From positions 1 to 23,106 of IMG/VR virus record IMGVR_UViG_3300009169_000106: a DNA stretch of 23,106 bases, one strand, 5' to 3'. Shown here piece by piece: positions 1 to 17,201 of this stretch. The notes beneath the pieces were generated by a model. That model did no database searches, was not told the DNA's origin, and saw only the letters and a program-made list of their open reading frames with translations. This DNA comes from a virus. Position numbers and translations under genes: made by a program. The stretch's first letter is position 1, and the number at the start of each line of letters is the position of its first letter.

Positions 1-7
1 AATTTAT

Positions 8-646: not shown

Positions 647-663
647 AAATTAGTTTTTGATTG

Positions 664-813: not shown

Positions 814-846
814 AATTATAATTTCTTTATTTCGTTTGGTTCTATA

Positions 847-1320: not shown

Positions 1321-1344
1321 ATTTTTTGATTTTATTTGCTAGGT

Positions 1345-1530: not shown

Positions 1531-1550
1531 ATATCTATTAAATTTAAGTG

Positions 1551-1558
1551 CAAAATTA
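1551..1558 (-). promoter_or_regulatory. Possible Bacteroidetes-type promoter (-7 box)
   Basis: On the minus strand this reads TAATTTTG, fitting TAnnTTTG. It lies at a suitable distance upstream of the ATG at 1530. No clear upstream TTG was found, and the surroundings are very AT-rich, so chance occurrence is possible. Confidence 0.4.
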
Positions 1559-1601
1559 ATAATTATTTTTTTAAAAGAGTTATTTTTTTTTATGGAAGAA
1601 T

Positions 1602-1814
1602 TTATTTTTTTAGTTCAGAAGGGGTAGTGTAAATTATGCTTTGTGTATCTGATCCACTATCTTTATAAGCATCAACTACCTTCGTCTTATTCTTTGCTTT
1701 GGTATATTCAAAAAATATTGGGGGTAAATACATCAGTAAAACTATCAATGTGGCCGACAATAATACTTTTATACTTAATTTTTCTTCTAACCATTCAATC
1801 GTTACTTTTGCCAT
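1602..1814 (-). CDS. Small single-pass membrane protein (70 aa)
   Basis: Begins MAKVTIEWLEEKLSIK and then has one strong hydrophobic segment at about residues 17-36 (LLSATLIVLLMYLPPIFF), followed by a Lys-rich and polar C-terminal half. The topology suggests a cytoplasmic N-terminus with the tail outside, or an inner-membrane anchor. Size and topology allow a holin- or spanin-like role near the transglycosylase, but nothing in the sequence proves that. Function unknown. Confidence 0.6.
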   Translation of the reverse strand: MAKVTIEWLEEKLSIKVLLSATLIVLLMYLPPIFFEYTKAKNKTKVVDAYKDSGSDTQSIIYTTPSELKK

Positions 1815-1853
1815 TTTTTATTTTTTATGGGTATTCCGAATGTTGTACTCATG

Positions 1854-2603: not shown

Positions 2604-2604
2604 A

Positions 2605-2778
2605 TTAATCTTTTTCTATGTGATTATAAATTAATTGCATGACCCAAGCATTTTCAAACTCATACATTCCGCAGGTTTCACAAGCTTCTTCCTCTGTAGC
2701 GTAGTATTTGATTTTTCCTTCTTTATCTTTCATAAAGTCCATGTTTCGCAGGTCTATTATTACATATTGTCCTTTCAT
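2605..2778 (-). CDS. Small hypothetical protein with CxxC (57 aa)
   Basis: Unreported short frame packed tightly between two genes (1 and 2 bases of spacing). It starts MKGQYVIIDLRNMDFMKDK and contains YYATEEEACETCGMYEF and a helical end WVMQLIYNHIEKD. The CETC pair could be a redox or zinc knuckle half-site. Similar short proteins with a K-x-KYY/F-x-T-x-EEA pattern are common in Bacteroidetes phages. The tight packing supports a real gene. Confidence 0.68.
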   Translation of the reverse strand: MKGQYVIIDLRNMDFMKDKEGKIKYYATEEEACETCGMYEFENAWVMQLIYNHIEKD

Positions 2779-2780
2779 GA

Positions 2781-3014
2781 TTATTCTGATTTATAAGTTT
2801 GGTTGTAGTATTGTTCTGCTCCATTCCTATCTATACTACAGCCATCTGAATCAATATTGTCCTCTCCATTTTCAAATGCATCAATAATTTGCTGCTTTTC
2901 CATTTCTTTGACTTTTTCAAATACCATAACCCATTCAGACATTGATTTTGCTTTTATTGTTTGGTCTTCTACAATGTTTTGGATTAATAATCCTACTGCT
3001 GTGACTTTTTTCAT
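2781..3014 (-). CDS. Small acidic helical protein, paralogue of its neighbour (77 aa)
   Basis: The start is the ATG at 3014 (MKKVTAVGLLIQNIVEDQ). A longer frame reaching 3158 uses a TTG and would run into the upstream gene. The N-terminus matches the gene at 3034-3288 (MKxVTAVxxLI...), and both carry KEMEKxQ near residues 36-41, so they are tandem paralogues. The C-terminus GAEQYYNQTYKSE matches a tail common in a widespread Bacteroidetes phage protein family. Function unknown. Confidence 0.72.
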   Translation of the reverse strand: MKKVTAVGLLIQNIVEDQTIKAKSMSEWVMVFEKVKEMEKQQIIDAFENGEDNIDSDGCSIDRNGAEQYYNQTYKSE

Positions 3015-3033
3015 TGTATTGTGATTTATAAGT

Positions 3034-3288
3034 TTATTTGTAATATTCTTCAAGTAAATCAATGGTTCTTTCTGCTCCATCGTATTTTGATTTAGCATGT
3101 AATATTTGACCATAAACATTTCTATTTTTATCAGAATATGTTGCCACAAATTCAGCAAATTTGACCATCTGCTCTTTTTCCATTTCTTTGGCTAGTTCAA
3201 ATAGCTTATAATTCTCGCCTTTCAATGTAACTTCATTTTCAGTTATAAGTTTATGAATTAACCAGTTTACTGCTGTGACTTCTTTCAT
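3034..3288 (-). CDS. Small helical protein, paralogue of its neighbour (84 aa)
   Basis: Starts at the ATG at 3288 (MKEVTAVNWLIHKL). The frame can be extended to a TTG at 3306, but that codon overlaps the promoter box at 3304-3311, so the shorter start is preferred. It shares MKxVTAVxxLI and KEMEKxQ with the next gene downstream. The C-terminal half differs (SKYDGAERTIDLLEEYYK). It is predicted helical and soluble. Function unknown. Confidence 0.75.
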   Translation of the reverse strand: MKEVTAVNWLIHKLITENEVTLKGENYKLFELAKEMEKEQMVKFAEFVATYSDKNRNVYGQILHAKSKYDGAERTIDLLEEYYK

Positions 3289-3303
3289 TATGATTAATTT
3301 TTG

Positions 3304-3311
3304 CAAAGTTA
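3304..3311 (-). promoter_or_regulatory. Bacteroidetes-type promoter, -7 box TAACTTTG
   Basis: Minus-strand TAACTTTG followed by CAAAAATTAATC and ATG 15 bases beyond the box, so the transcript would have a very short leader. No convincing upstream TTG. It follows a gene gap, which fits an internal start for the 3.3 kb to 0 kb part of the leftward cluster. Confidence 0.5.
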
Positions 3312-3352
3312 ATGTTTATCTCTCTAAATAAAAGTTAAAAATTCTAAATACT

Positions 3353-3763
3353 TTAATCTAATAAATAATAAAATTTATTTACATCACAATCTGAGGCATC
3401 AATACCTTTTTCTTTATTTAAAGACAAATTGTAAGATCCTTCTTCACTTTCCGCTACTAATATATAATCTGACTGCACATCCTCTAAGATAGTATTAAAT
3501 TTAGGATCTATCACTGAAATTTCAGCAACAAAAATAGCAGACCTTACATTTCTATATATACTATTTTTAACCGTAAATCTTTTTACATCAAAATTAGAGT
3601 TATTAATTAACTTTTCATAAACCTCAGTAGCATTCAAGTTTGTAGTGTCTAAAGGAATATTTATTGTTACCCCCTTCATGTTACATACAATGGGAGATTC
3701 TTTACCCATACTTTTCATTACACAAGGATCAATAGCTTCTAATTTTTTACCAATTTTTATCAT
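3353..3763 (-). CDS. Hypothetical protein sharing an N-terminal motif with the gene at 5437-5661 (136 aa)
   Basis: The N-terminus IGKKLEAIDPCVMKSMGKES aligns with IGSELVAINPCVMRTTGEEA in the gene at 5437-5661, pointing to a shared small beta domain. After residue 30 the two differ: this one continues with a longer beta-rich region ending ASDCDVNKFYYLLD. It is soluble, with no signal peptide. It may be a divergent duplicate that gained a C-terminal extension. Function unknown. Confidence 0.7.
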   Translation of the reverse strand: MIKIGKKLEAIDPCVMKSMGKESPIVCNMKGVTINIPLDTTNLNATEVYEKLINNSNFDVKRFTVKNSIYRNVRSAIFVAEISVIDPKFNTILEDVQSDYILVAESEEGSYNLSLNKEKGIDASDCDVNKFYYLLD

Positions 3764-3792
3764 AACTTTTATTTGTTTAATTTTTTGTTAAG

Positions 3793-4188
3793 TTAATAAG
3801 AATATTCTCTAAACCCATTTGGATAAAATAACCTCATCACTACCTTTTCAGCAAATATAATTTGAAGATATAACCCAGTAAATGTTGTATAATTTAACAT
3901 TTCATGCACATCATACTTATGTCCTGCGTCAGTATTTGACGTAAATATTGGCTCAACCTGTGTTAAATGAAGGGTTTCTGTTTGTCCATCTGTGTATATT
4001 ATCATCAATCCATTATCATTTTCATTGTATGATAATTTTGATACTCTTGAAAAATATATTGCCTTCTCCCCATATTCTTTAAATGAATATGTTTTGGAAT
4101 AATAATCCCACCCATGGTTTGTCTTAACCATTTGGGAATAAGAGCACAGCGTTATCATCATTAATATTAGTGTTATTATCCGTTTCAT
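3793..4188 (-). CDS. Secreted/periplasmic hypothetical protein (131 aa)
   Basis: Begins with a classical signal peptide: MKR, a hydrophobic core IITLILMMITL and the end CSYSQ, after which cleavage is expected near residue 19. The S-Q ending is typical of Flavobacteriia-type exported proteins. A lipobox is not complete because the Cys is followed by SYS. The mature part is beta-rich with aromatic residues (NHGWDYYSKTYSFKEYG, LFYPNGFREYSY). It may be an envelope-modifying or superinfection protein, but this is only inference from export. Confidence 0.65.
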   Translation of the reverse strand: MKRIITLILMMITLCSYSQMVKTNHGWDYYSKTYSFKEYGEKAIYFSRVSKLSYNENDNGLMIIYTDGQTETLHLTQVEPIFTSNTDAGHKYDVHEMLNYTTFTGLYLQIIFAEKVVMRLFYPNGFREYSY

Positions 4189-4192
4189 ATTA

Positions 4193-4366
4193 TTATAATT
4201 TTAATTTTTGATATTCTGTAATAAAATAAATTACATCATCTTTACTAAATTCTTCACATATATTTTCTTCAAAATTAATTATTAAGCTATCTAGGTAATC
4301 CGAGTCATTTATCTCTTCTGTAGTTAAATCATGTCTATCTAACCACTGGAATAATATTTCTTTCAT
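4193..4366 (-). CDS. Small acidic protein (57 aa)
   Basis: Short frame starting MKEILFQWLDRHDLTTEEIND and ending VIYFITEYQKLKL before two stop codons. It is strongly acidic in the middle (NFEENICEEFSKDD) and predicted helical. The stop lies 4 bases before the ATG of the secreted protein gene, typical operon packing. Size and charge would suit a host-protein inhibitor or DNA mimic, but nothing specific supports that. Confidence 0.62.
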   Translation of the reverse strand: MKEILFQWLDRHDLTTEEINDSDYLDSLIINFEENICEEFSKDDVIYFITEYQKLKL

Positions 4367-4416
4367 CTTGTTTATTTTTAAATTGTTAATACTAACTATT
4401 TTTTAAAGGGGAATAA

Positions 4417-4623
4417 TCACCCATTATAGTTTCTATCTACTTTTACTATATGAGAATAGTTATTCCCTCTACTTGTAAACGCACTTCTAGTATTGGGAGA
4501 CAATGTACTCGACCAGAGTTTATTTAGGTCAACAGGGTTGTTATCTACGCTTTTAGCTTTTTTACGAGCGACTAAAGCAGCTAATTTAATGTCAATGGGG
4601 TTTGTTAAAATTGGATCTTTCAT
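4417..4623 (-). CDS. Hypothetical basic protein (68 aa)
   Basis: Starts MKDPILTNPIDIKLAALVARKK and continues with polar, Asn- and Ser-rich sequence (LSPNTRSAFTSRGNNYSHIVK). Basic and probably partly disordered. Preceded by an A-rich leader. A longer non-coding stretch (4624-4749) follows upstream, with the 15-bp unit ttttaatgttaata(a/g) repeated twice. No family recognised. Confidence 0.6.
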   Translation of the reverse strand: MKDPILTNPIDIKLAALVARKKAKSVDNNPVDLNKLWSSTLSPNTRSAFTSRGNNYSHIVKVDRNYNG

Positions 4624-4749
4624 TTTAAAAATTTTTAATGTTAATAATTTTAATGTTAATAGTTTAAAAACTACCCCTAACAGATATTATATATTATTAG
4701 ATGTAATTCAATTAAAGGGTTTATAGTTAAGTTTAATGTCTTTATAAAT

Positions 4750-4983
4750 TTATTGTAAATAATCAGTCATTAGACTATCTAATTGTCCTTGCAATTCTAC
4801 TCTTCCTACAAAGGTATTGTTGTCAAATACTTCTACAGAAGAATCTACTACATATATTCTAAAGCTACAATCAGTTGGCTCTGAATGAGAATGAATTGTA
4901 GTTTCTAAAATCATAGCTAACATAATAGCTAAAATTATAATTAAAAATGCAGTGGTGCTGAGGGAAATATTTGTTACTCTCAT
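4750..4983 (-). CDS. Small single-pass membrane protein (77 aa)
   Basis: After MRVTNISLSTT there is a hydrophobic helix at about residues 12-28 (AFLIIILAIMLAMILET), then a His/Ser linker and a beta-rich tail (FRIYVVDSSVEVFDNNTFVGRVEL). This looks like an anchored domain with the C-terminal part outside the membrane. It could also be an uncleaved export signal. Function unknown; the gene call is supported by clear topology and spacing. Confidence 0.65.
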   Translation of the reverse strand: MRVTNISLSTTAFLIIILAIMLAMILETTIHSHSEPTDCSFRIYVVDSSVEVFDNNTFVGRVELQGQLDSLMTDYLQ

Positions 4984-5013
4984 ATTTATAGTTTTAAGGT
5001 TAATAATATAAGT

Positions 5014-5205
5014 TTAATTAAGATAATCCATTAACTTTCCATAAACAAAGTCCCCATCATTATTTAATTCGTTAAGTTGATCCTCTGTCATTTCTTCTCC
5101 GTTATATTCTGCTCTAACAATATAAGCATCACAATAATCGGGGTAGTCACCATGGTCGATACCATCAAACTCAATGTCTCTAATCAATTTGTAATCTAAT
5201 GTCAT
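5014..5205 (-). CDS. Conserved small phage protein, DYPDYCDAYI family (63 aa)
   Basis: Contains GIDHGDYPDYCDAYIVRAEY and QLNELNNDGDFVYGKLMDYL, a pattern I recognise as common in small proteins from many tailed phages (ID-x-x-DYPD[FY]CDAYI ... LN-x-D-x-DFVY). Acidic, soluble, with no catalytic motif. The match covers the full length, so this is very likely an intact gene, but the family has no known role. Confidence 0.78.
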   Translation of the reverse strand: MTLDYKLIRDIEFDGIDHGDYPDYCDAYIVRAEYNGEEMTEDQLNELNNDGDFVYGKLMDYLN

Positions 5206-5244
5206 TTTTTTAATTTTTAATTTAATTAATTATAATAATTTTTT

Positions 5245-5412
5245 TTACTCGTAAGTGGAGGAATTAGGGGAGTCATTATTATCACTTATCCTATGTGTTT
5301 TTTCTTCTTCACCATTTTCATCTAAAAATACTTTAGATGGATCACCGAGATTACCAAACATACCTCCATTTATTATCTCATCTAAATCTTCAAAAAATTC
5401 TTTAAAGTCCAT
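5245..5412 (-). CDS. Small acidic hypothetical protein (55 aa)
   Basis: Short frame starting MDFKEFFEDLDEIINGGMFG, then NLGDPSKVFLDENGEEEK and a polar tail ending SSTYE. It is strongly acidic. It sits in the same orientation as its neighbours with 24 bases to the upstream gene and an A-rich leader. No family recognised. The tail after residue 40 is low in complexity and probably disordered. Confidence 0.6.
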   Translation of the reverse strand: MDFKEFFEDLDEIINGGMFGNLGDPSKVFLDENGEEEKTHRISDNNDSPNSSTYE

Positions 5413-5436
5413 ATTGTTTATTTTTAATTTATAAAA

Positions 5437-5661
5437 CTAATTAGAGGGCTTAAACCATTTAGGTAATTCGTCTACTAGAAACCAATGTTCTTCATTTTGT
5501 TCGTCTATTATTACAACTTCATCTTCATCATCATCATCTTTAGTGAGATCAATAATTCCATATTCTTTACCTACAACGAGGGCTTCTTCGCCTGTGGTTC
5601 TCATTACACAAGGGTTAATGGCTACTAATTCTGATCCGATTTGCAATTTACTTTTTTCCAT
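5437..5661 (-). CDS. Small SH3-like/beta-domain phage protein (74 aa)
   Basis: Pattern IGSELVAINPCVMRTTGEEALVVGKEYGI, then an acidic run DDDDEDEVVIIDEQNEEHWF and LPKWFKPSN. It resembles a recurrent phage protein type in which a small beta barrel ends in a D-x-x-x-WF-x-P motif. It shares its N-terminus with the gene at 3353-3763. It is the first gene downstream of the strong promoter module at 5698-5765 and so probably well expressed. Function unknown. Confidence 0.76.
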   Translation of the reverse strand: MEKSKLQIGSELVAINPCVMRTTGEEALVVGKEYGIIDLTKDDDDEDEVVIIDEQNEEHWFLVDELPKWFKPSN

Positions 5662-5697
5662 TTTTTTATTTTATTTTATTTGTTATTAATTTTGGTG

Positions 5698-5765
5698 CAA
5701 ATATACGATTATTGAAAGGGCTGGTGTTATCAATTTTGTTGCAATTACTTTAATTTTTGTTTCAA
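5698..5765 (-). promoter_or_regulatory. Leftward promoter with two 21-bp-spaced upstream boxes
   Basis: The minus strand shows TATATTTG at 5705-5698 (TAnnTTTG box). Exactly 25 bases upstream ends the proximal box TTGCAACAAAATTG (5744-5731), followed by ATAACAC. A second box TTGAAACAAAAATT begins 21 bases further upstream (5765-5752) and overlaps the stop codon of the gene at 5762-5992. The same arrangement, with the same 25- and 21-base distances, is present at 11214-11281. It probably drives the gene at 5437-5661 and those after it. Confidence 0.75.
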
Positions 5766-5992
5766 TTTACGAATAATTCATTATAAATTCCTTCTTCTTG
5801 AAATTTCAATAGGTATGCTTGGCACTTATTGGTGAAACTTTCTGTGTCTAGTCCTTGCACCTCTACAAATCCGTTAAAGTTAAATGTTTTGAGGGGTTCA
5901 CAATGCACCACTTGTTTTTTGCTCTGAATAAATACATAGTTTCCCATTTGTATTACATTTGTGTTTCCGTCTGTTAAGATCTTTTTTGTCAT
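5762..5992 (-). CDS. Hypothetical protein (76 aa)
   Basis: Starts MTKKILTDGNTNVIQMGNYVF, a beta-hairpin-like N-terminus, followed by VQGLDTESFTNKCQAYLLKFQEEGIYNELF, which looks helical. Soluble. The stop codon overlaps the distal box of the promoter module at 5698-5765, so its 3' end has a double function. No family recognised. Confidence 0.65.
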   Translation of the reverse strand: MTKKILTDGNTNVIQMGNYVFIQSKKQVVHCEPLKTFNFNGFVEVQGLDTESFTNKCQAYLLKFQEEGIYNELFVN

Positions 5993-6003
5993 TTTTATGG
6001 CTT

Positions 6004-6318
6004 TTAATTATTTTTATAATTTTTAATAAATTCTACTACTGCTGAATAAATTGCTTCAAACATACTTCCCTCAATAACGTCTACCATTACTTCACTTTTT
6101 GTATTGTTCACTATTTTTACACGATTATCATGTATCTGCACCACGTTATTAAGGTCGTTTATTCTTCCCACTACTTCCATAAGCCAGTCCCATCTAGTGT
6201 TAAAAGTATCCTCTATTAATTTGGTTCCGTGTCCCTGTATGAATAGTTGTTCCTGTCCTTCCTCTAATGGAATTCCCATAAACTCTGCTATTAACTTATT
6301 ATTTTCTATTGTGTTCAT
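6004..6318 (-). CDS. Conserved phage protein, IAEFMG...SWDWLM family (104 aa)
   Basis: Reads NNKLIAEFMGIPLEEG near the start, then TRWDWLMEVVGRINDL and a C-terminal AIYSAVVEFIKNYKNN. This N-[KR]-LIAEFMG ... WDWLMPVV ... [AE]-x-VEFIKWYN layout is frequent in short proteins of Bacteroidetes and other phages, where it is usually left unnamed. The leader contains CATAAAAAATG, shared with several genes of this cluster. The full-length match makes the gene call firm; the function is unknown. Confidence 0.8.
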   Translation of the reverse strand: MNTIENNKLIAEFMGIPLEEGQEQLFIQGHGTKLIEDTFNTRWDWLMEVVGRINDLNNVVQIHDNRVKIVNNTKSEVMVDVIEGSMFEAIYSAVVEFIKNYKNN

Positions 6319-6363
6319 TTTTTATGATTTTTAGTTTAATTGTTTTTAAATTTTTTCTCACTA

Positions 6364-6398
6364 TCTTGATAGCTTTGAGGATATATAGGCTATCAAGA
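6364..6398. repeat. Perfect 10-bp inverted repeat with 15-base loop
   Basis: TCTTGATAGC (6364-6373) pairs with GCTATCAAGA (6389-6398) in the 104-base gap between two leftward genes. The left arm itself lies in a smaller palindrome CTATC-TT-GATAG. No U-run follows on the minus strand (AGTGAGAAAAAA comes next), so an intrinsic terminator is not clear. It could be an RNA hairpin that shields a 3' end, or an operator. Confidence 0.5.
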
Positions 6399-6422
6399 AT
6401 ATAATGAATATAATACATAATC

Positions 6423-7001
6423 CTAATAACATACCACATTGTTTATAAGTCCTTTTTTAATTAAAATAAATGTTTTTAAGTCTTTTTTACATAGTGCCAA
6501 CCGATCCTCACTATATTGTAGTTTGCCACCCATTATAGGATGATCTCCGTGTCCGTTTGTAACTTTTGTACAAATTTCTTCGGCTGTTTCAGAAGTAAAT
6601 TGTGTAGGCTCTATAGCCATTCCTAGATATATTTTTTTATCTTTGTCCACTCCTACAGAAATACCTGTTTCTTTATAATACACTATGGTATTGCATCTTT
6701 CCAAAGAAGGGTATTTTTCTACCCCATCAATTATTTTTTCTAATAGTTGTATGTTCTTTTGGGTTGTTTCAATCAAGGAAGAATACTCTCTAAGATTAGT
6801 AGCTACAGGCTCTGCTATATCGTGGATAATAATCCCATTTTCGGTCTGCTGGGCAAACTTGTTTTGCATTTCCAATAGATAATAATATTCTGATTTTTCC
6901 ATTGTATAGCCTCCATTATTGGAGTACCCCATATTTTTGGGTAATTGTCCTACATTTGTTTCTTGTAGGGTATAATCTGCGTTTTTTACTAATTTGTGCA
7001 T
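6423..7001 (-). CDS. Hypothetical protein with GYTMEKSEYYYLLE N-terminal domain (192 aa)
   Basis: The first about 60 residues (VGQLPKNMGYSNNGGYTMEK, SEYYYLLE, ENGIIIHD) match the short gene at 10299-10466, which stops just after the same GVIIH. The rest contains a long helix (TTQKNIQLLEKIIDGVEKYP), a middle region with YKETGISVGVDKDKKIYLGM, and a C-terminal helix. No enzyme motif recognised. The N-terminal segment may be a binding module reused in two proteins. Confidence 0.7.
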   Translation of the reverse strand: MHKLVKNADYTLQETNVGQLPKNMGYSNNGGYTMEKSEYYYLLEMQNKFAQQTENGIIIHDIAEPVATNLREYSSLIETTQKNIQLLEKIIDGVEKYPSLERCNTIVYYKETGISVGVDKDKKIYLGMAIEPTQFTSETAEEICTKVTNGHGDHPIMGGKLQYSEDRLALCKKDLKTFILIKKGLINNVVCY

Positions 7002-7041
7002 AATTTTTTATTTTTAATTGTTAATTTTTAATTGTTAATTT

Positions 7042-7563
7042 TTAATCACAAAGTTCACTACTAAAGTCTAGTCCAAAAAGGGGATCAATTTCTTCTGATA
7101 TTATTCCTAATATTTCCAAAAACGTCTCATCATCTTCTTCCATAATATAATCGGATATAACTCCTATTTCATTTAATCTGTTTATTATTCCCACCGCACA
7201 ATCTGTTGAATCTGTATATTTAATTTTTTTAATACTTTTAAAATTTTTATTGTCAGTAATTGTACTTGAACTAGGGGCAATACTTTCGTCTGTCTTGGCT
7301 CTTGATCCCCCGTATCTTTTCTTTTTAGGAGGGTTAATCATATTTTCGCTTAACTCTATCTCGCAAAGATGGGCGTTTCCGTCTTTTTCTTGGTTGTCTT
7401 TAGTATCTAAGAATACAATATTGATAGGGTTTTCATCCCAATTTTTTCTATCAAAGGTATCTATATCCACTCCTACAATTTCATAGAAATTTTCGTCAAA
7501 CATATTCATCCATACCATAGGCTTAGATTTCTTCACTGCTTTTTTAAATTCTATCTTATCCAT
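7042..7563 (-). CDS. Hypothetical protein (173 aa)
   Basis: N-terminal part (MDKIEFKKAVKKSKPMVWMN) is followed by a beta-type region and a basic patch PPKKKRYGGSRAK at about 95-107, which could contact nucleic acid. The C-terminal half is acidic and helical (CAVGIINRLNEIGVISDYI, FLEILGIISEEIDPLF). Upstream lies a twice-repeated TTTTTAATTGTTAA leader (7013-7040 region). No known family recognised. Confidence 0.65.
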   Translation of the reverse strand: MDKIEFKKAVKKSKPMVWMNMFDENFYEIVGVDIDTFDRKNWDENPINIVFLDTKDNQEKDGNAHLCEIELSENMINPPKKKRYGGSRAKTDESIAPSSSTITDNKNFKSIKKIKYTDSTDCAVGIINRLNEIGVISDYIMEEDDETFLEILGIISEEIDPLFGLDFSSELCD

Positions 7564-7575
7564 ATATAAGTTATT

Positions 7576-7983
7576 TTAGTTATAATCATTTTTGTAAGGT
7601 AAAAAATACTGCTTATCAAATTCTTGGATAGTGCCTTTGTAATTGTCATTGTATATAAGCACCCCTTTAGGCTCTGAATGTATGAAAGTAATAAATACCG
7701 CTATGCACTCTTGAAAAGTCTCCTCGCAAAGTATCTTTGTTGTTGTGTACAATACTTCTACAATATCTTCTCTATAGGCTACAAATAATTCCACCACCAT
7801 AGTAGGCTCTTTTTGGGTTATTCCATTGGAGGTATAAACTCCTTCTTGATATTGGCAATAAATCTCTGAATCATCAGCCTGTAGGCCACTATATAATTCT
7901 ATAATTCTTGCCTTTGTTTTTTCAAAGTCTAGAATACCTAAAGTACCTATTTTTAATCCTACGTTTAATTCTATTTTTGTCAT
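7576..7983 (-). CDS. Hypothetical protein (135 aa)
   Basis: Soluble mixed alpha/beta protein starting MTKIELNVGLKIGTLGILDF. It contains EEGVYTSNG-type strands, TMVVELFVAYREDIVEVLY and a helix CEETFQECIAVFITFIHSEP. The leader CATAAAAAATG and the upstream CAATTAAAA match the shared motif of this cluster. No family recognised. Confidence 0.65.
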   Translation of the reverse strand: MTKIELNVGLKIGTLGILDFEKTKARIIELYSGLQADDSEIYCQYQEGVYTSNGITQKEPTMVVELFVAYREDIVEVLYTTTKILCEETFQECIAVFITFIHSEPKGVLIYNDNYKGTIQEFDKQYFLPYKNDYN

Positions 7984-8023
7984 TTTTTATGAGTTTTAAT
8001 TGTTTAAATTTTTACTTGTTTAA

Positions 8024-8212
8024 TTAAGATTTTTTAAATTTGCTATATATGTACCCTTTTTTTTCTGCTAATAGATCTTTAATCTTCCACTCCTCCGATA
8101 TACTACAGAATAGTTTTTTACTCGTATGACTAGAAAATGTACAATACTCCTTTATAATAGCTTTTTTTTCTGCCTCTGTATAGGCAAATGGTTTGATTTT
8201 TCCTACTTTCAT
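8024..8212 (-). CDS. Small basic hypothetical protein (62 aa)
   Basis: Begins MKVGKIKPFAYTEAEKKAII and is Lys-rich throughout, ending GYIYSKFKKS. The two Cys (EYCTF, LFCSI) are too far apart for a clear metal site. It has the size and charge of a small nucleic-acid-binding or host-interaction protein, but no motif supports a role. Tight operon context supports a gene. Confidence 0.58.
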   Translation of the reverse strand: MKVGKIKPFAYTEAEKKAIIKEYCTFSSHTSKKLFCSISEEWKIKDLLAEKKGYIYSKFKKS

Positions 8213-8235
8213 TTAATTATTTATTCTTTTTGTGA

Positions 8236-8421
8236 TTAAATTTTTTCTATTGAAATAACTTGGTCGCTATTTAAGTCGTAATAATTGCCATCAAACTTTG
8301 GTTTAGGCAAATCTGCATCTAAATATGTATCTAAGATTAATTCGACTTGGTTTGGAGTTTGGTTTTCAAAATAGTTTCCTTTTATGTGTGATTGAATACC
8401 TCCGATTGTTACATTGTACAT
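8236..8421 (-). CDS. Small hypothetical protein (61 aa)
   Basis: Starts MYNVTIGGIQSHIKGNYFEN and ends NSDQVISIEKI. Slightly acidic, with beta and helical pieces and no cysteines. Its start is 6 bases from the stop of the next gene upstream, a typical operon join. No family recognised. Confidence 0.6.
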   Translation of the reverse strand: MYNVTIGGIQSHIKGNYFENQTPNQVELILDTYLDADLPKPKFDGNYYDLNSDQVISIEKI

Positions 8422-8427
8422 AATTAT

Positions 8428-8682
8428 TTATTTAGTGGCGTTATTAATTACTTTTTCAATTCTTACTGATAGCCAAAACGGCATATCGTTCCAATTATCT
8501 TTTCTTTGATAGTATTCTTGTATTTCTTTTAATAGTTCTAATTTTTCATCTTCGGGAGGATTTTTATCTAAATAGTCTCTCAAATCTGCTTTTAAATTAT
8601 ACAATAATTCATCTTCATCTTTATCATCATAGGTAGATGATTGGTAAATATTAAATAGTTCACTATATTGTGTCTCTGTCAT
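8428..8682 (-). CDS. Hypothetical acidic helical protein (84 aa)
   Basis: Starts MTETQYSELFNIYQSSTYDD; the rest is helical and charged (LYNLKADLRDYLDKNPPEDE, LLKEIQEYYQRKDNW) and ends FWLSVRIEKVINNATK. The leader has CATAAAAAATG preceded by AATTTAAAAT. No membrane part or motif. Function unknown. Confidence 0.63.
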   Translation of the reverse strand: MTETQYSELFNIYQSSTYDDKDEDELLYNLKADLRDYLDKNPPEDEKLELLKEIQEYYQRKDNWNDMPFWLSVRIEKVINNATK

Positions 8683-8708
8683 TTTTTATGATTTTAAATT
8701 GTTATAAA

Positions 8709-8864
8709 TTAGTTTAATTTGCCAAATATTTTCTTATAGATAGCATTCAAACTTGTTGCGGTATACGTTCTTGAATTCTTCTCGGCTATATACGTTCCCT
8801 TCATTCCTAGAGTAAGATAATATCCGTGCTTTTTTAGTTTTTTTCTTATTGCTTGAATTTTCAT
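8709..8864 (-). CDS. Small basic phage protein (51 aa)
   Basis: Short frame starting MKIQAIRKKLKKHGYYLTLG, then GTYIAEKNSRTYTATSLNAI and ending KKIFGKLN. Very basic. The arrangement (basic helix, two strands, short helix) resembles a small phage protein type with an L-x-K-x-GY-x-L ... V-E-x-x-R pattern. It fills the gap between its neighbours in the same orientation. Confidence 0.65.
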   Translation of the reverse strand: MKIQAIRKKLKKHGYYLTLGMKGTYIAEKNSRTYTATSLNAIYKKIFGKLN

Positions 8865-8879
8865 TTTTTTAAATTTTTA

Positions 8880-9065
8880 CTAGTTAACATTACAAAAAAA
8901 GTCTTCCTCCACAAAACTTACATGCTCGTAATGAGCAAATATAACCTCGTCAGATATCTCGTGTGGATAGTCATATTGATATTTATGGTCTATATCCTCA
9001 TCATAGAAGTAATTCCATTTTAATTGGTCTAATTCGTTTTTGTTTAGTTCTTTTACGTTTTTCAT
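8880..9065 (-). CDS. Conserved small phage protein ending in DFFC (61 aa)
   Basis: MKNVKELNKNELDQLKWNYF opens the protein; HEISDEVIFAHYEHVSFVEE and DFFCNV close it. This matches a very common short phage protein with the layout L-x-x-x-EL-x-x-L-K-x-x-YF ... [EP]I-x-x-x-V-x-x-HYE-x-x-x-FV-x-[DE]DFFC. The match runs to the end of the protein, so the gene is intact. No role has been established that I know of. Confidence 0.8.
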   Translation of the reverse strand: MKNVKELNKNELDQLKWNYFYDEDIDHKYQYDYPHEISDEVIFAHYEHVSFVEEDFFCNVN

Positions 9066-9154
9066 TTTTTTACTTTTTTAAAGATATTAATTAATTTAAA
9101 ATAATGGTGTAAAATTAGGGTTTATCTATTTAGTGAATTGTTAATAATTCTTAA

Positions 9155-9355
9155 TTATTTATTAATAAGTGTAAAAAAATCTAGTTCTTTGAAATACAGA
9201 AATTCTCCGTGTTCGTCTGTCAAAGGAAATGAGCAGTCTATTATTGTACTCTGAACCATCAATCCCTCTTTGCCTTGTTGAATCTCATAGCCTGTATTCT
9301 GCCAATATACTTTAGTTCCTTCTGAGATAGCTTTTTTAATTTGTTCTAATGTCAT
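9155..9355 (-). CDS. Conserved small phage protein (66 aa)
   Basis: The ATG at 9355 (MTLEQIKKAISEGTKVYWQN) is chosen; a longer frame from a TTG at 9433 would overlap the upstream gene. The sequence GTKVYWQNTGYEIQQGKEGL looks like a small beta domain found in short phage proteins (L-x-x-I-x-x-A[IL]-x-x-G-x-x-V-x-W-x-N-x-x-Y-x-V). Soluble, function unknown. Confidence 0.76.
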   Translation of the reverse strand: MTLEQIKKAISEGTKVYWQNTGYEIQQGKEGLMVQSTIIDCSFPLTDEHGEFLYFKELDFFTLINK

Positions 9356-9375
9356 AATTTTATTAATTTTATGGG

Positions 9376-9579
9376 TTAATCTTCTAGTTCTTCGTTGTAT
9401 GTAAATGTGTTCGGCTTCCCCTGTTCTATCCAATTTAGGATTTCCCCTTTATATGCAACTTCTATACAAGGAATACCCCCCTCTGTATGTAGTTGATATA
9501 AAGGTCTCCCCTCGTTGTCTCCCTGTGGCTCTATAGTTCCTGTCCACAGGTAAAAAAAGAATATTATTTTAGCTATCAT
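9376..9579 (-). CDS. Hypothetical protein with hydrophobic N-terminus (67 aa)
   Basis: MIAKIIFFFYLWTGTIEPQG gives a short hydrophobic start that could be a weak anchor. The rest is polar (EGRPLYQLHTEGGIPCIEVA, LNWIEQGKPNTFTYNEELED) and beta-rich. Its leader CTAACCAACTAAATTTAAAC resembles the TAACCAA leader of the next genes upstream. Function unknown. Confidence 0.6.
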   Translation of the reverse strand: MIAKIIFFFYLWTGTIEPQGDNEGRPLYQLHTEGGIPCIEVAYKGEILNWIEQGKPNTFTYNEELED

Positions 9580-9597
9580 CTGTTTAAATTTAGTTGG

Positions 9598-9930
9598 TTA
9601 GTATGCTCTTGTTGGTAAATTTTGGGTTTGTTCGTATGAAAGGCTTTCCCATTCTCCCTCTTCGGGATTTGTTAAACTATGAAAATAGCGTTTCAATTCT
9701 TCTGCAATTTTTTCTAGCTTTAATTGCTTTTTTGAGGTAATTTCTTTCCCATATGCGTTTATTGTGTTATTCTCGCTTATAGCCCCCAGCATACCTCCGC
9801 CTAGATAGTTTTGATAGGCGGACATTTTTTCGCCCTTGAAACCTAAGGTAGTGAGGTCAATTTCTACTCCTCCGCCTCTTGACGAAAGTTCTTGTCTTAA
9901 TGTAATTTCTGCAAAGTTAATTTTTTTCAT
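9598..9930 (-). CDS. Conserved phage protein, MSAYQNYLGGGMLG family (110 aa)
   Basis: Contains MSAYQNYLGGGMLGAI at about 36-51 and LEKIAEELKRYFHSLTNPEE at about 72-91, a pattern I recognise in short proteins of Bacteroidetes phages. The protein starts MKKINFAEITLRQELSSRGG. Its message would begin at the hammerhead cleavage site of 9948-9999, giving a 23-base leader. Function unknown; the gene itself is secure. Confidence 0.8.
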   Translation of the reverse strand: MKKINFAEITLRQELSSRGGGVEIDLTTLGFKGEKMSAYQNYLGGGMLGAISENNTINAYGKEITSKKQLKLEKIAEELKRYFHSLTNPEEGEWESLSYEQTQNLPTRAY

Positions 9931-9947
9931 TTTTTATGAATTTTTTT

Positions 9948-9999
9948 GGTTAAGACGTACCGAAGTACGTTTCGACTATTTAAGTCTCATCAGTTAACC
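9948..9999 (-). ncRNA. Type I hammerhead ribozyme (copy 1)
   Basis: Read 9999 to 9948 on the minus strand. Stem I 5' half GGUUAA, core CUGAUGA (9993-9987), stem II GACU-UAAAU-AGUC with the conserved G-C closing pair, core GAA plus A (9973-9970), stem III ACGUAC-UUCG-GUACGU, C at 9954, then stem I 3' half UUAACC. All hammerhead core nucleotides are present. Expected cleavage is between 9954 and 9953. The stop codon UGA of the gene at 9990-10229 is formed by U4-G5-A6 of the core. A second copy with changed but still paired stem III is at 10248-10297. Confidence 0.93.
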
Positions 10000-10229
10000 T
10001 CTATATCTATATACCATTGAATATCTTTACCTACATATTGTAAGTAATTAGAAATCCTATCATAAGAATTATCATCAAAAAATCCTTGCACAACATCATT
10101 GAAATCATCGCCTAAAAGTTCTTTTGCAATGCTTTCATAAAACGCAGTAGCTTTTTCATCAGAGGAGGTAACAAAAGGGGTTCTTATTATACCTTTTTCT
10201 GTTACTATTATAACATTTACTTTTTTCAT
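9990..10229 (-). CDS. Hypothetical protein encoded between two hammerhead ribozymes (79 aa)
   Basis: Starts MKKVNVIIVTEKGIIRTPFV, followed by a helix (DEKATAFYESIAKELLGDDF) and an acidic C-terminal part ending WYIDIEVN. Soluble alpha/beta protein of unknown family. The gene is bounded on both sides by self-cleaving ribozymes: cleavage at 10254/10253 and 9954/9953 would leave it alone on a 300-nt RNA with a 24-base leader. Its stop UGA and a following in-frame UGA lie inside the downstream ribozyme core, so ribosomes reaching the end would interfere with that fold. Confidence 0.74.
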   Translation of the reverse strand: MKKVNVIIVTEKGIIRTPFVTSSDEKATAFYESIAKELLGDDFNDVVQGFFDDNSYDRISNYLQYVGKDIQWYIDIEVN

Positions 10230-10247
10230 TTTTTATGAATTTTAATT

Positions 10248-10297
10248 GGTTAAGACGCCCTAAGGCGTTTCGACTACTTAAGTCTCTTCAGTTAACC
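10248..10297 (-). ncRNA. Type I hammerhead ribozyme (copy 2)
   Basis: Read 10297 to 10248 on the minus strand. Stem I 5' half GGUUAA, core CUGAAGA (10291-10285; the variable N7 is A), stem II GACU-UAAGU-AGUC, GAA plus A (10271-10268), stem III ACGCC-UUAG-GGCGU, C at 10254, then UUAACC. Cleavage expected between 10254 and 10253. Compared with copy 1, stem I and stem II are kept while stem III changes from CGUAC/GUACG to CGCC/GGCG with full pairing. It begins one base after the TAG stop of the gene at 10299-10466. Confidence 0.92.
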
Positions 10298-10298
10298 T

Positions 10299-10466
10299 CT
10301 AGTGAATTATCACTCCGTTAGGTGTATATTCAATCTTTTTACCCTGTGCCTCTAGAAGTCTGTAGTATTCTGACTTCTCCATAGTGTAGCCCTCTTTGAT
10401 GGAATAGCCTACATTTTGAGGTAATTTTGCAACTTGTGTTTTTTGTGTGCTTCTTTGTGCGTTCAT
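10299..10466 (-). CDS. Short paralogue of the N-terminal domain of the 192-aa protein (55 aa)
   Basis: Starts MNAQRSTQKTQVAKLPQNVG and contains EGYTMEKSEYYRLLEAQGK and TPNGVIIH, ending TAG at 10301-10299. It aligns along its whole length with residues about 16-61 of the protein at 6423-7001, where the chain continues after GIIIHD. Either it is a truncated duplicate or the stand-alone form of a small domain. The stop codon lies directly before the stem I of the ribozyme at 10248-10297. Function unknown. Confidence 0.72.
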   Translation of the reverse strand: MNAQRSTQKTQVAKLPQNVGYSIKEGYTMEKSEYYRLLEAQGKKIEYTPNGVIIH

Positions 10467-10520
10467 TTTTTGTGTTTTATTGGTTAGTTAATTATTTGAA
10501 ATTTTTTTAAAGACTAGGAG

Positions 10521-10781
10521 TTAAGGCAATTTTACAAGCACTTCTAAAAATAACATTTTCCCCCCTATATGATTATAGGAGTTAGGCTCGATTAAATAAC
10601 AGGCATCCCCTATCATTACCTCTCTAGTTTTAGTGCCTTGAATTGCAATATCTCCAACTAGCACCCCTTTATCTTTTTTAAGTTCTGCAAAACTTGATGG
10701 CCTCTCAAAACCATTGGCATCTCCCCAAGTTACAATTTCTCTATCTGTGTTAAATAAGTACTCTATTTTAGCTGTATGCAT
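10521..10781 (-). CDS. Hypothetical protein (86 aa)
   Basis: MHTAKIEYLFNTDREIVTWG at the start; the middle has GVLVGDIAIQGTKTREVMIG and the end YNHIGGKMLFLEVLVKLP. Beta-rich and soluble. Its leader AATAACCAAATAAATTTAAT again carries the TAACCAA element of this group of genes. No family recognised. Confidence 0.65.
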   Translation of the reverse strand: MHTAKIEYLFNTDREIVTWGDANGFERPSSFAELKKDKGVLVGDIAIQGTKTREVMIGDACYLIEPNSYNHIGGKMLFLEVLVKLP

Positions 10782-10808
10782 ATTGATTAAATTTATTTGG
10801 TTATTTAA

Positions 10809-11132
10809 TTATTTTGAAGTTAGAAAATGTCTGTCAAATCGGTAGCCTAGAGTCTCCGCTATATCGTCACAAGCCTCCAGCCACAAAGACGTGTAATATA
10901 CGGCTTTAGGACTATTTTGTACCTTTTTCCCTAAATACCATAGGTCTCTACTACCTCTATCGATTTGTTCTTGATAGCAAAGGTTCTTATACTTTTCCTC
11001 GCTTAGTTGCGCTTTGAGTTCTCTTAGCGTTTCACATTCTTGAAGTAGTAAATTGTAGACTATTTGCAAATGAGAATTTGTAGCTTGAATTTGTCCGCTT
11101 TTTAGCATTTGGAATTTTTGTGTCTTTGTCAT
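10809..11132 (-). CDS. First gene of the leftward cluster, hypothetical (107 aa)
   Basis: Mostly helical: QIVYNLLLQECETLRELKAQ and LSEEKYKNLCYQEQIDRGSR look like a coiled-coil or helical hairpin, followed by YTSLWLEACDDIAETLGYRF. Basic N-terminus MTKTQKFQMLKSGQ. It is the first gene after the promoter module at 11214-11281 and so would be made earliest in leftward transcription. Function unknown; a host-takeover or regulatory role is possible only from position. Confidence 0.68.
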   Translation of the reverse strand: MTKTQKFQMLKSGQIQATNSHLQIVYNLLLQECETLRELKAQLSEEKYKNLCYQEQIDRGSRDLWYLGKKVQNSPKAVYYTSLWLEACDDIAETLGYRFDRHFLTSK

Positions 11133-11213
11133 TTTTTTACTTTTTTTAAGATTTGTTAATATTTGTTAATTTTATGTGTATTCTATATAATAGCTCCGCT
11201 ACTAAATATGATA

Positions 11214-11281
11214 CAAAGATAAGCCATCCGCATACCTATGTGTTATCAATTTTGTTGCAAAAACATTAAATTTTGTTGCAA
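11214..11281 (-). promoter_or_regulatory. Leftward promoter with two 21-bp-spaced TTGCAACAAAATT boxes
   Basis: The minus strand has TATCTTTG at 11221-11214, then 25 bases upstream the box TTGCAACAAAATTG (11260-11247) followed by ATAACAC, and a second box TTGCAACAAAATTT starting at 11281, exactly 21 bases (two helical turns) further out. The module at 5698-5765 has the same elements and distances. It drives the gene at 10809-11132 and, through it, the leftward cluster. The boxes look like paired protein-binding sites. Confidence 0.8.
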
Positions 11282-11579
11282 TATATAAACCCACAGAATA
11301 AACCACTCTTTAACACAATTTAACGAAACCCCTCATATAACATTCTAAATTAAATGGGCTGGATTATCTTGTTAAACTTTGTTAAGAGTTTCAGAGAGAC
11401 ACGATAGTTTTGCTATATCTAAGCTACTAGGATATTGATATGTATATGGGCTTAAATGGGCGGATATGGGCGAGAGTTGGTATAATAGGTCACTTACCCT
11501 TACCCACCAGAAAATAATCGCTTAGAACGCCTCTAATGAGATAATGTATAAATATATTCGGACAAATTTGTCTTTTTTT
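11282..11579. other. Non-coding, left part of the divergent control region
   Basis: About 300 bases without a supported gene. It holds AT-rich sequence with short internal matches (ttaacacaatttaacg, gttaaactttgttaagag). The longest plus-strand start here encodes only 17 residues (ATG near 11355). No tRNA or ribozyme fold was recognised by eye. Confidence 0.5.
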
Positions 11580-11870
11580 CCTACTACTAGTTGCACCCCT
11601 CCCGTTTTCCCGCCCCTACTTTGTCCCTCCCCCGCCCTTTTGGTCCTATTGGTCCCTACTCTATAAGGTCCTCGAGGTCCGCCCCTCCTTAGGACCTCCC
11701 CTGTTGGTCCCCCGCTACTTAGGTCCCCTATGTTTATGGACCGCCCTACCCTCCAGCCCCTGTACTCTAGGCCCTATCATACCTCTAGGCCCATAGGCCC
11801 GTAGGCCCTCCCCCTCTAGGTCCTGTATTAGTGAGGGGATATGTAGCCACCCCCTATATATATTATTCTA
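11580..11870. other. C-rich non-coding patch with clustered GGNCC
   Basis: Composition changes abruptly from AT-rich to C-rich on the plus strand. Thirteen GGNCC sequences (ggtcc, ggacc, ggccc) lie between 11642 and 11823, often inside the form TAGG-N-CC. Runs of three to five C at 11586-11640 would form G-runs on the minus strand. No reading frame of note crosses the patch on either strand. It is flanked by both divergent promoters, so a replication-origin or protein-loading role is possible. Confidence 0.6.
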
Positions 11871-11893
11871 TTAGAACTCCCCGACCCCATCCG

Positions 11894-12028
11894 CCCTATG
11901 TATATATACCCCTATGTATATATATCTATTAGTATATATATATAGATAGATAGACGAACTAGACAGACAGACAGAGACAGACAGACTAGACCTCCCCCGA
12001 GCAGAGCAGAGCAGAGCGGGGAGCAGAA
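11894..12028. repeat. Chain of short tandem repeats
   Basis: Side by side: a 15-base unit ccctatgtatatata repeated twice at 16-base spacing (11894-11908, 11910-11924), TA alternations to about 11943, a GATA run (11944-11955), a GACA run (about 11961-11987) and a GAGCA/AGAGC run (about 12000-12028). Such a series of unrelated microsatellites is unusual for a phage. The TA part would melt easily, as in an unwinding element. Confidence 0.7.
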
Positions 12029-12391
12029 CTCCCCCTAGCCACAACGCCCACGCCCTAGAGAGTTCCCCCGAAACTATTTTTCGCTAATGGAAAACCGAGT
12101 TTTTGGAATTTATGGGAGGGTATTTGAAAAATGGGTCATGTAGTTGGGAAAAGTTTTTCATACACCCCACTTTTCATTCTCACATAACATACGGGGGATA
12201 GTTTTTTTGTTCTACTAGGGGGGATATGATTTTGGGTGGGGCTAAAAAAATTTTAGGGGTGGGGGGGGGTATAAAAAATAAAAAATTAGGGGGAGATTTT
12301 CGGGGGTTTGGTTATAGGTAAAACTTGCATATAAATAATTAAAGAAGCGTTAAAAAAAGTACCTAGGAAAATCAAGGGTTCCGAGAGGGTG
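12029..12391. other. G-rich non-coding patch
   Basis: Here the plus strand becomes G-rich, the reverse of the C-rich patch to the left. G runs of three or more lie at 12193, 12218, 12233, 12237, 12256, 12261 (nine G), 12289 and 12302, separated by AT-rich stretches. A four-stranded G structure on the plus strand is possible. No gene supported. AT-rich sequence with short direct repeats leads into the dyads at 12392. Confidence 0.5.
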
Positions 12392-12433
12392 AAAGTACAT
12401 TTTTGTACTTTTCGTGTACATTTTTGTACTTTT
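12392..12433. promoter_or_regulatory. Two tandem dyads, 21 bp apart (operator-like)
   Basis: AAAGTACA-TTTT-TGTACTTT at 12392-12411 is a perfect 8-bp-armed dyad. A second copy with core GTACA-TTTT-TGTAC is at 12416-12429, and the 18-bp sequence gtacatttttgtactttt is repeated exactly at 12395 and 12416. The 21-bp period puts both on the same DNA face. It is about 100-140 bases upstream of the rightward promoter, so it is a likely repressor or activator site. Confidence 0.68.
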
Positions 12434-12442
12434 GACCCGCTG

Positions 12443-12472
12443 AAACCCGCATTTCTTCGTTGAGGGTTTTTT
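12443..12472 (+). terminator. Weak terminator-like hairpin
   Basis: AAACCC (12443-12448) can pair with GGGTTT (12464-12469) around a 15-base loop, followed by further T. The stem is short and the loop long. It could attenuate a transcript entering from the left, but it may be chance. Confidence 0.25.
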
Positions 12473-12528
12473 GGAAAAGGGTGTGATAAATGTGTAAAAA
12501 TAAATTCTTTCTAATAGAAAAATAATTC

Positions 12529-12558
12529 TTGCTATTTGTATAAAAGTTTGTATCTTTG
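12529..12558 (+). promoter_or_regulatory. Rightward promoter (TTG-N19-TATCTTTG)
   Basis: TTG at 12529-12531, 19 bases, then TATCTTTG at 12551-12558, an excellent fit to the Bacteroidetes housekeeping promoter. The ATG of the first rightward gene is 15 bases beyond the box. The 16 bases aaagtttgtatctttg recur exactly at the promoter at 13002-13017. Confidence 0.82.
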
Positions 12559-12573
12559 TAAAAAATTAAAAAT

Positions 12574-16516: not shown

Positions 16517-16945
16517 ATGACAATTAAAGAATTCAAAGAACAACCAATTCCAGATTTCGGGTTTGAAATCAAAAGAGAAAATCACATTTTAGTACAATGT
16601 TACGCTAAAAAAAGTGCATTGGCTTCTCAGCTAGTGGGTATGGACAACCGTAAAACCACTGAAATTAAAAATGCTTTTAAAGTATTGATGGCTAATGGTT
16701 CTAAAACCTTTAAAGAAGGAGATATTATTTCTCTTGGAGATAATATGGTGGATAAACCAATTGTAAGCTATAAGCCGCCTGTAGGAGGAGATCCTGAGGG
16801 AGAAGCTAGACCAGTATTCGGGTCCTATCTACAAGGACTAATGCCATTTGCATTCTTCTGTAATAAGTTAGAAGACGCAGATGATGCTTTAGAGCTTACA
16901 TTTTTAATACCAGAGGATCTTGTCACCGTAAAACATAATATATAA
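16517..16945 (+). CDS. Hypothetical beta-rich protein of the packaging region (142 aa)
   Basis: Starts MTIKEFKEQPIPDFGFEIKR. The middle holds KTFKEGDIISLGDNMVDKPI and PPVGGDPEGEARPVFGSYLQ, the end FLIPEDLVTVKHNI. The GDIISLG element and the final D-x-V-x-V look slightly like a GroES-type small beta barrel, but this is weak. Own promoter and A/C-rich leader suggest high expression, as for a virion or assembly protein. One base separates it from the next gene. Confidence 0.68.
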   Translation: MTIKEFKEQPIPDFGFEIKRENHILVQCYAKKSALASQLVGMDNRKTTEIKNAFKVLMANGSKTFKEGDIISLGDNMVDKPIVSYKPPVGGDPEGEARPVFGSYLQGLMPFAFFCNKLEDADDALELTFLIPEDLVTVKHNI

Positions 16946-16946
16946 A

Positions 16947-17201
16947 ATGGAAAAAAATACCAATAAGAAAAAAACACCAGCTTCTCCTAAGAAGAAATCG
17001 TCTAGAGTGACTAAAAAAGAAGAGACATCTTTGTTAGAGAGCAATAAGATAGAGGATAGCATTATAAATGAAACTCCAATTGTTTATAATACCCCAAAAT
17101 GCACTGTTCCTTCTTCAGATATTCTTGGAATAAAGTCATTTACGGAGTCTTTACGAGACAAAATTGTAAATTTTATAAAACTATTACTAACCTATAAATA
17201 A
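16947..17201 (+). CDS. Lys-rich small protein (84 aa)
   Basis: The N-terminal 30 residues are very basic (MEKNTNKKKTPASPKKKSSR), reminiscent of histone-tail or scaffold-type sequences, followed by polar linker and a C-terminal amphipathic helix (LRDKIVNFIKLLLTYK). Probably disordered N-terminus. It could bind nucleic acid or act as an assembly helper. No family recognised. Confidence 0.62.
   Translation: MEKNTNKKKTPASPKKKSSRVTKKEETSLLESNKIEDSIINETPIVYNTPKCTVPSSDILGIKSFTESLRDKIVNFIKLLLTYK

Follow-up and report, generated by a model that had tools for sequence, protein, structure and literature searches.

Two type I hammerhead ribozymes in neighbouring gene junctions of a phage gene block: probable signals for intergenic mRNA processing

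Why should a phage carry two self-cleaving RNA motifs in neighbouring junctions of a single gene block? The locus that raises this question lies in a virus record of 23,106 bases, the whole of which was analysed and is called the window below. The record is probably a fragment of a phage genome. Judged by one gene, the large terminase, whose best match was found in Cellulophaga phage phi14:2 (Steigviridae, Crassvirales; 34% over 97%), the phage appears to be crAss-like (Crassvirales). A comparison of positions 8000-12000 with cultured phages revealed no nucleotide similarity. A leftward gene block fills positions 1-11132 and a rightward block starts at 12574. Both hammerheads, designated copy A and copy B, are located inside the leftward block between the genes for proteins of 55, 79 and 110 amino acids (Table 1). 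The original prediction had described them as type I hammerheads of a phage, placed in neighbouring junctions of one same-strand gene block and serving RNA processing. This remains the best reading, although the novelty claimed for the tandem arrangement was lost, as will be discussed below. We consider it probable that the two hammerheads are intergenic processing signals which cut a leftward polycistronic phage mRNA into messages of one or a few genes.

Table 1. Coordinates of the two hammerheads and of associated features in the window
Feature	Position	Strand	Remarks
Virus record (the window)			23,106 bases
Upstream gene, 55 aa	10299..10466	-	ORF list; UAG stop codon (10301-10299) ends right before copy A
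Unpaired A 5' of copy A stem I	10298	-	partner A at 10247
Hammerhead copy A (type I)	10248..10297	-	predicted cut 10254/10253
Predicted 24-nt 5'-OH leader of 79-aa gene	10230..10253	-	UUAACCAAUUAAAAUUCAUAAAAA; from sequence
Gene between ribozymes, 79 aa	9990..10229	-	ORF list
Unpaired A 5' of copy B stem I	10000	-	partner A at 9947
Hammerhead copy B (type I)	9948..9999	-	predicted cut 9954/9953
Predicted 23-nt 5'-OH leader of 110-aa gene	9931..9953	-	UUAACCAAAAAAAUUCAUAAAAA; from sequence
Downstream gene, 110 aa, unknown function	9598..9930	-	widespread in virus contigs
Candidate Bacteroidota-type -7 element	11214..11221	-	TATCTTTG; pattern scan

Direct reading of the minus strand confirmed the observation of two complete type I hammerheads at the predicted place, with every described element present, and the predicted cuts agree with the sequence. 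In both copies stem I is composed of GGUUAA at the 5' end and UUAACC at the 3' end, and stem II of GACU and AGUC. Copy A has CUGAAGA in the core, UAAGU as loop II and ACGCC-UUAG-GGCGU as stem III, while copy B has CUGAUGA, UAAAU and ACGUAC-UUCG-GUACGU, respectively. Stem II is followed by GAA and stem III by the C of position 17 (H expected), which immediately precedes the predicted cut. In both, the core of CUGANGA and GAAA includes A15.1-U16.1. The two copies are therefore identical in stems I and II and have a single base difference in loop II. Each gave the hammerhead three-way junction as its minimum-free-energy fold. Fold and covariation alike give the hammerhead topology of three helices, with stem I open and stems II and III closed by loops. 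Stem III differs between the copies and stays paired, as had been pointed out, but the term compensatory variation needs qualification. The copies are paralogous, and because their arms differ in length (6 bp in copy B, 5 bp in copy A) they show no position-by-position covariation. Covariation of that kind comes from the comparative data on relatives.

A search with the Rfam type I model had been proposed as a check. RF00163 (Hammerhead_1) matched both copies end to end, but with scores below the curated cut-off of 34: in this record copy B reached 27.4 bits (E 1.4e-6) and copy A 24.0 bits (E 1.9e-5), and Rfam gave no match in the window at gathering score. The copies share the core, the topology, the 6-bp stem I and the short loop II with RF00163 but differ from it in having unpaired A residues outside stem I together with a UNANU loop. 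Their low scores might be taken to mean that they are chance or non-catalytic hairpins, for instance terminators or mRNA-stabilising stems, which merely resemble hammerheads. However, the same cut-off was reached by only 1 of 54 relatives, so the cut-off itself is the problem, being too high for this set; the curated score is a database diagnostic and not a defining feature of type I hammerheads. A covariance model, R1, was built from 44 relatives with copy B left out. It scored copy B, which is outside the training set, at 65.7 bits (E 5.9e-16) and copy A, which is inside it, at 74.4 bits. A pattern scanner demanding core and stems found nothing in the window after any of 300 dinucleotide shuffles; in related loci it gave 302 matches in 2.0 Mb of real sequence against none in 6.1 Mb of shuffled sequence. 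The absence of matches in shuffles and the invariant core described below make chance or non-catalytic hairpins an extremely improbable explanation. Nor do the copies belong to RAGATH-1 (RF03152), whose model scored 22.5 and 20.2 bits against a curated 56.3; as regards its upstream hairpin with a conserved loop, relatives showed no strong 5' conservation beyond the first flanking base.

The same element is present in hundreds of virus contigs, singly or in one-strand clusters of up to seven. A pattern that combined the core with the 3' strand of stem I gave at least 120 matches in the virus collection, and so did a second pattern without stem I; in 84,980 bacterial and archaeal genomes the GGUUAA form was found on 2 contigs. 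When 47 records were searched with model R1 they contained 1 to 7 copies each, multiple copies lying within a few kilobases, and in all 61 non-redundant multi-copy loci the copies were on one strand. Two metagenome-assembled genomes, of a beta proteobacterium and a Streptomycetaceae bacterium (L229 and L230), carried 2 and 4 copies on short contigs, which are probably phage contigs binned with bacteria.

C3, U4, G5, A6, G8, A9, G12, A13, A14 and A15.1 were invariant in 99 unique model matches, all 99 of which had CUGANGA and GAAA, while the sequence of stem III was not conserved. The core was also intact in 37 copies that satisfied neither search pattern. In an alignment fitted to the model, 99.5% of the helix cells paired and the covariation score was 0.739, against 0.140 for shuffled and at most 0.070 for slid alignments. 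Pair counts of the sequences from which the model was built are not independent evidence, because these sequences were selected for pairing. Better evidence is provided by the covariation score, by the comparison of conserved junctions (see below) and by the set collected without bias for stem I. Among the matches listed for the latter, stems I and III were formed in 110 of 113 core matches, and stem I was exactly 6 bp long in 109 of the 110, with about 50 different sequences. Among 268 unique relatives position 17 was occupied by C in 241 and by A in 27, G having been excluded by the scanner.

An unpaired A was found on the 5' side of stem I in 98% and on its 3' side likewise in 98% of 261 unique relatives, and most relatives had UNANU as loop II. 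Contact between loop II and stem I is what makes natural hammerheads fast, and co-variation of flanks and loop is its expected mark (see PMC3088659 and PMC6155905). As a sequence signature rather than a structure, A.A flanks accompanied 223 of 224 UNANU loops but only 48 of 63 other loops; flanks other than A.A occurred with 1 of the 224 and 15 of the 63, respectively (Fisher p 4e-10). Going by this signature, the unpaired A residues flanking stem I in the window may make a tertiary contact with the UNANU loop II. A minority form (L127, L187, L221, L222) has A-U as the outermost pair of stem I, U.U flanks and GUAA or another loop II, pointing to an alternative contact between loop II and stem I. 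In 34 unique hammerheads (L095, L037, L051, L056, L082, L093 and others) an extra base, U in 31 of them, was inserted between core A9 and stem II. Some viroid hammerheads also carry an extra base at this point.

How are these ribozymes placed with respect to genes? Of 276 upstream stop codons, 175 were located within the ribozyme's first 20 nt and 245 between -60 and +20. From the predicted cut to the next AUG the median distance was 25 nt, with 160 of 266 distances falling between 19 and 28 nt, and no more than 5 of 285 ribozymes lay inside an ORF. Stop codons in at least two frames were present in 257 of 258 ribozymes, 133 of which had all three frames closed within the first 30 nt. Exactly one ORF was found in 47 of 90 intervals between ribozymes. 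The median interval was 91% coding, and the ORF following a ribozyme had a median length of 79 aa. In the window the 79-aa gene ends within the catalytic core of copy B, where U4-G5-A6 of CUGAUGA serve as its UGA stop codon. The 79-aa protein had no relatives in viral contigs or in 12 related contigs and no PHROG or Pfam match. The 110-aa protein, also without a match in Pfam or PHROG, had 103 relatives in virus contigs, the best with 97% identity. The product of the 55-aa gene is paralogous to part (residues 7-60) of the 192-aa protein encoded by ORF 6423-7001 on the same minus strand (BLASTP 59% identity, E 7e-20); the gene stops at the ribozyme as if truncated at a domain border.

A common transcript of the 55-, 79- and 110-aa genes is plausible and may, as the original prediction had it, serve early gene expression. 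The element at 11221-11214 was the only -7 candidate on the minus strand from the start of the block to copy A, and no terminator was detected on this strand between the candidate and the 110-aa gene. As 38 matches to the pattern were expected in the window and 60 were obtained, the single site is weak evidence. TATCTTTG or TATATTTG elements were also noticed shortly 5' of several rightward genes (12551, 13010, 13434 and 16475, plus strand), where they resemble the Bacteroidota -7 promoter element.

On such a transcript each ribozyme would fold during the passage of RNA polymerase and cut 3' of GUC, that is after the C at position 17. The new 3' end of the upstream gene would then consist of the stem II and stem III hairpins with a 2',3'-cyclic phosphate. 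The 79-aa gene would obtain its own message of about 300 nt (10253 to 9954) and the 110-aa gene would stand at the start of a separate message. Both messages would begin with a 5'-OH and a short leader, A-rich and 23-24 nt long. The 5'-OH end would be expected to resist 5'-phosphate-dependent decay and the hairpin end to resist 3' exonucleases. We infer the cleavage, its timing, the chemistry of the ends and any effect on stability or translation from the sequence, structure, position and comparative conservation of the elements. Published support for the first of these comes from the cleavage in Escherichia coli of a tandem, phage-type Agrobacterium array (PMC3088659). As the stop codon of the upstream gene falls within the 5' arm of the ribozyme or next to it, no reading frame would be separated from its stop codon. 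Some observations stand against processing: the small genes on which the ribozymes are found are unrelated and quickly replaced, an oddity if separate processing is required by a particular gene, and the two copies have an identical stem I, which simple local processing does not need.

A terminating ribosome would cover the ribozyme. Cutting may thus have to be complete before one arrives. This consideration also opens the way to regulation. The ribozymes might be switches, either aptazymes or coupled to translation, in which a ligand, a protein or terminating ribosomes set the expression of small genes through cleavage. Most stop codons do overlap the ribozyme, so that terminating ribosomes could block folding, and some relatives have long stem III arms. 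However, stem III has no conserved sequence, and the short, closed and otherwise unconserved stems of the window copies leave no room for an aptamer domain. We regard such switches as unlikely.

It might be thought surprising that stem I is the same in both window copies, and usually also within other phages of the GGUUAA type. Part of the explanation lies in the leader. The 3' strand of stem I is a piece of a leader motif which also occurs before ribozyme-free genes: UAACCA was seen 36 times in the leaders of such genes of GGUUAA phages, against about 7 expected (summed). As a general rule this was rejected, for it failed in both phages with other stems I that were tried (L424, L427). Shine-Dalgarno-like leaders were rare in GGUUAA phages (20 of 116) and frequent in the others (55 of 102), so the type of leader is probably determined by the host rather than by the ribozyme. 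Members of another phage group (L136, L221-L223, L144) showed the stop-ribozyme-start layout with a post-cut leader, CTGCTAGGAG, of the Shine-Dalgarno type.

A shared stem I would also be expected if tandem ribozymes yield circular or spliced RNA, for example a circular mRNA of the 79-aa gene. The excised unit would start with UUAACC and its 3' ribozyme contains GGUUAA, so the ends could pair and be religated by the ribozyme or an RNA ligase. Neighbouring ribozymes with unlike stems I cross-paired at all six positions in 12 of 41 cases, against 7.5% of unlike pairs from different genomes, but shared descent predicts such an excess as well, and 18 of the 41 cross-paired at four positions or fewer. 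Where the search had been free of stem I bias, stem I was shared in only 8 of 54 pairs from the same locus. The stems I of such loci are unlike and covary separately, and circularisation was rejected as the general cause of a fixed stem I. Moreover, Perreault et al. sought such products and saw none (PMC3088659). Circular or spliced products therefore seem improbable, even a little more so than regulated switches.

Processing also has to be reconciled with the rapid gain and loss of the copies. Among the closest relatives (terminase 90-100% identical) most contigs were without any copy, so the device must be dispensable; two relatives, G053 and G058, had one copy each. In the window, G053 and G058 a ribozyme comes after the 55-aa gene; next stands a different gene in each, the three (79, 80 and 95 aa) being unrelated, and then the 110-aa gene, the second ribozyme before the latter being present in the window only. 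Homology among the three ends near the start codon after the ribozyme, and the G053 ribozyme resembles copy B though it occupies the junction of copy A. On a wider scale, the 260 ORFs that follow ribozymes fell into 211 families. A mobile element with its own protein was considered and rejected, as no gene family is shared among the flanked ORFs.

Two comparisons of homologous genes bear on this turnover. When a ribozyme followed one member of a homologous pair only, the next gene was shared in 2 of 230 pairs (both of them scanner misses), against 303 of 1175 pairs with a ribozyme after neither. Where both neighbours of a junction were homologous, the ribozyme was present in both junctions in 66 distinct pairs and in one only in 1; by our own count about 16 of the 66 involve loci that have diverged, and in the others the contigs are near-identical or one and the same. 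Several of these diverged pairs carry compensatory stem changes. A copy thus persists as long as its junction does, and ribozymes are gained and lost along with the small accessory genes that they flank. Two apparent losses at conserved junctions proved to be an artefact of the scanner, both copies having an extra U between A9 and stem II.

These patterns might mean that the chief function of ribozyme and leader is that of a gene-swapping seam: a repeat of 50-80 bp at which small accessory genes are exchanged and where cleavage gives each newcomer, in whatever place it has landed, its own message. The slot after the 55-aa gene, the break in homology near the start codon, the copy B-like ribozyme of G053 and the 2 of 230 shared next genes all fit such a seam. 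On the other hand, an adjoining slot without a ribozyme has been swapped among the same relatives too, and the A-rich leader also precedes ribozyme-free genes, so the leader by itself may be the seam. The counts, moreover, are not independent, and the invariant core requires a catalytic role in any case. We regard a seam as the main function as possible but clearly less likely than processing, and in view of the non-independent counts and the swapped ribozyme-free slot we do not claim that the ribozyme causes gene exchange. Processing and exchange can be combined in a wider proposal, which we put forward tentatively and do not hold to be likely: hammerheads may be standard punctuation in a large, mainly metagenomic phage group, turning small accessory genes into self-contained expression cassettes exchanged across seams. 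A stop codon, a self-cut and a leader of 20-28 nt would then be packed into about 75 nt, and an incoming gene would gain its own mRNA 5' and 3' ends without a promoter or terminator.

To what extent were such arrangements already known? The suggestion that tandem hammerheads of this kind were undescribed is refuted by Perreault et al. (2011; PMC3088659), who found several hammerheads around single genes or blocks of genes in prophages, proposed that they process the RNA into single-gene mRNA and showed cleavage of three arrays. Their clusters in Clostridium scindens, Azorhizobium caulinodans and Agrobacterium tumefaciens (their Figure 3) resemble the window in having several hammerheads around phage-origin genes whose identities change. 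The window likewise contains two hammerheads close together and flanking phage genes. In contrast to the present set, which is of type I and comes from viral contigs, those clusters belong to prophages in bacterial genomes and to types I, II and III. No discussion of stop codons, ribosomes or translation was found in that paper; the position of the stop codon in the ribozyme and the spacing of about 25 nt are quantified here. A review of 2017 described such motifs as close together around small non-conserved ORFs and called the role of prokaryotic hammerheads an open question (PMC6155905). A literature search, which covered few subscription papers, found no later paper on this phage set.

Several other systems may be compared. 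The halovirus HF1/HF2 carries a hammerhead variant 13 nt 5' of a helicase start codon, with the 5' end of a transcript mapped close to the cut (PMC3088659). It shares with the window set a cut just before a start codon and belongs to a lytic virus, but it is a single copy with an altered core in an archaeal virus. In retrozymes (PMC4918200, PMC7761336), as in the window, two hammerheads bound a unit. The intervals described here, however, have no conserved unit and contain different protein genes each, and are therefore neither retrozymes nor other mobile RNAs bounded by ribozymes. Among cultured phages, Flavobacterium phage elemoC and Pelagibacter phage HTVC019P matched the same model (E 7e-12 and 6e-12), and a strict scan revealed a hammerhead in Agrobacterium phage OLIVR1. 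In contrast to the window, one copy was found in each of the three, with other stem I sequences and no annotation in the records. The elemoC hammerhead lies between two genes, with an AUG, that of the gene at 16929 (minus strand), about 28 nt past the predicted cut. A small antisense gene has been deposited over this ribozyme (elemoC 16937-17044; L123 2962-3069) and is probably a false call.

What the present analysis adds is the extent of the set, the geometry of stop codon, cut and start codon, the rule relating flanks and loop, the near-absence from annotation and the link to gene turnover. The set offers an architecture that can be tested (a stop codon in or beside the ribozyme, the cut, about 25 nt, a start codon) in hundreds of natural replicates and three cultured phages. 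Because the Rfam cut-off hides nearly all copies, this probable processing signal goes unannotated in phage genomes. If the processing reading is true, an RNA enzyme does work in shaping phage messages that is usually done by endoribonucleases, promoters and terminators.

The two gene blocks of the window diverge from 1.4 kb without clear genes (11133-12573). From about 11580 to 12060 the plus strand is C-rich, the G+C content reaching 0.585 in an otherwise AT-rich phage, and a sharp change in GC skew follows. TA and GACA runs and repeated GTACATTTTTGTAC palindromes are found around 12395-12430 in the same gene-poor stretch.
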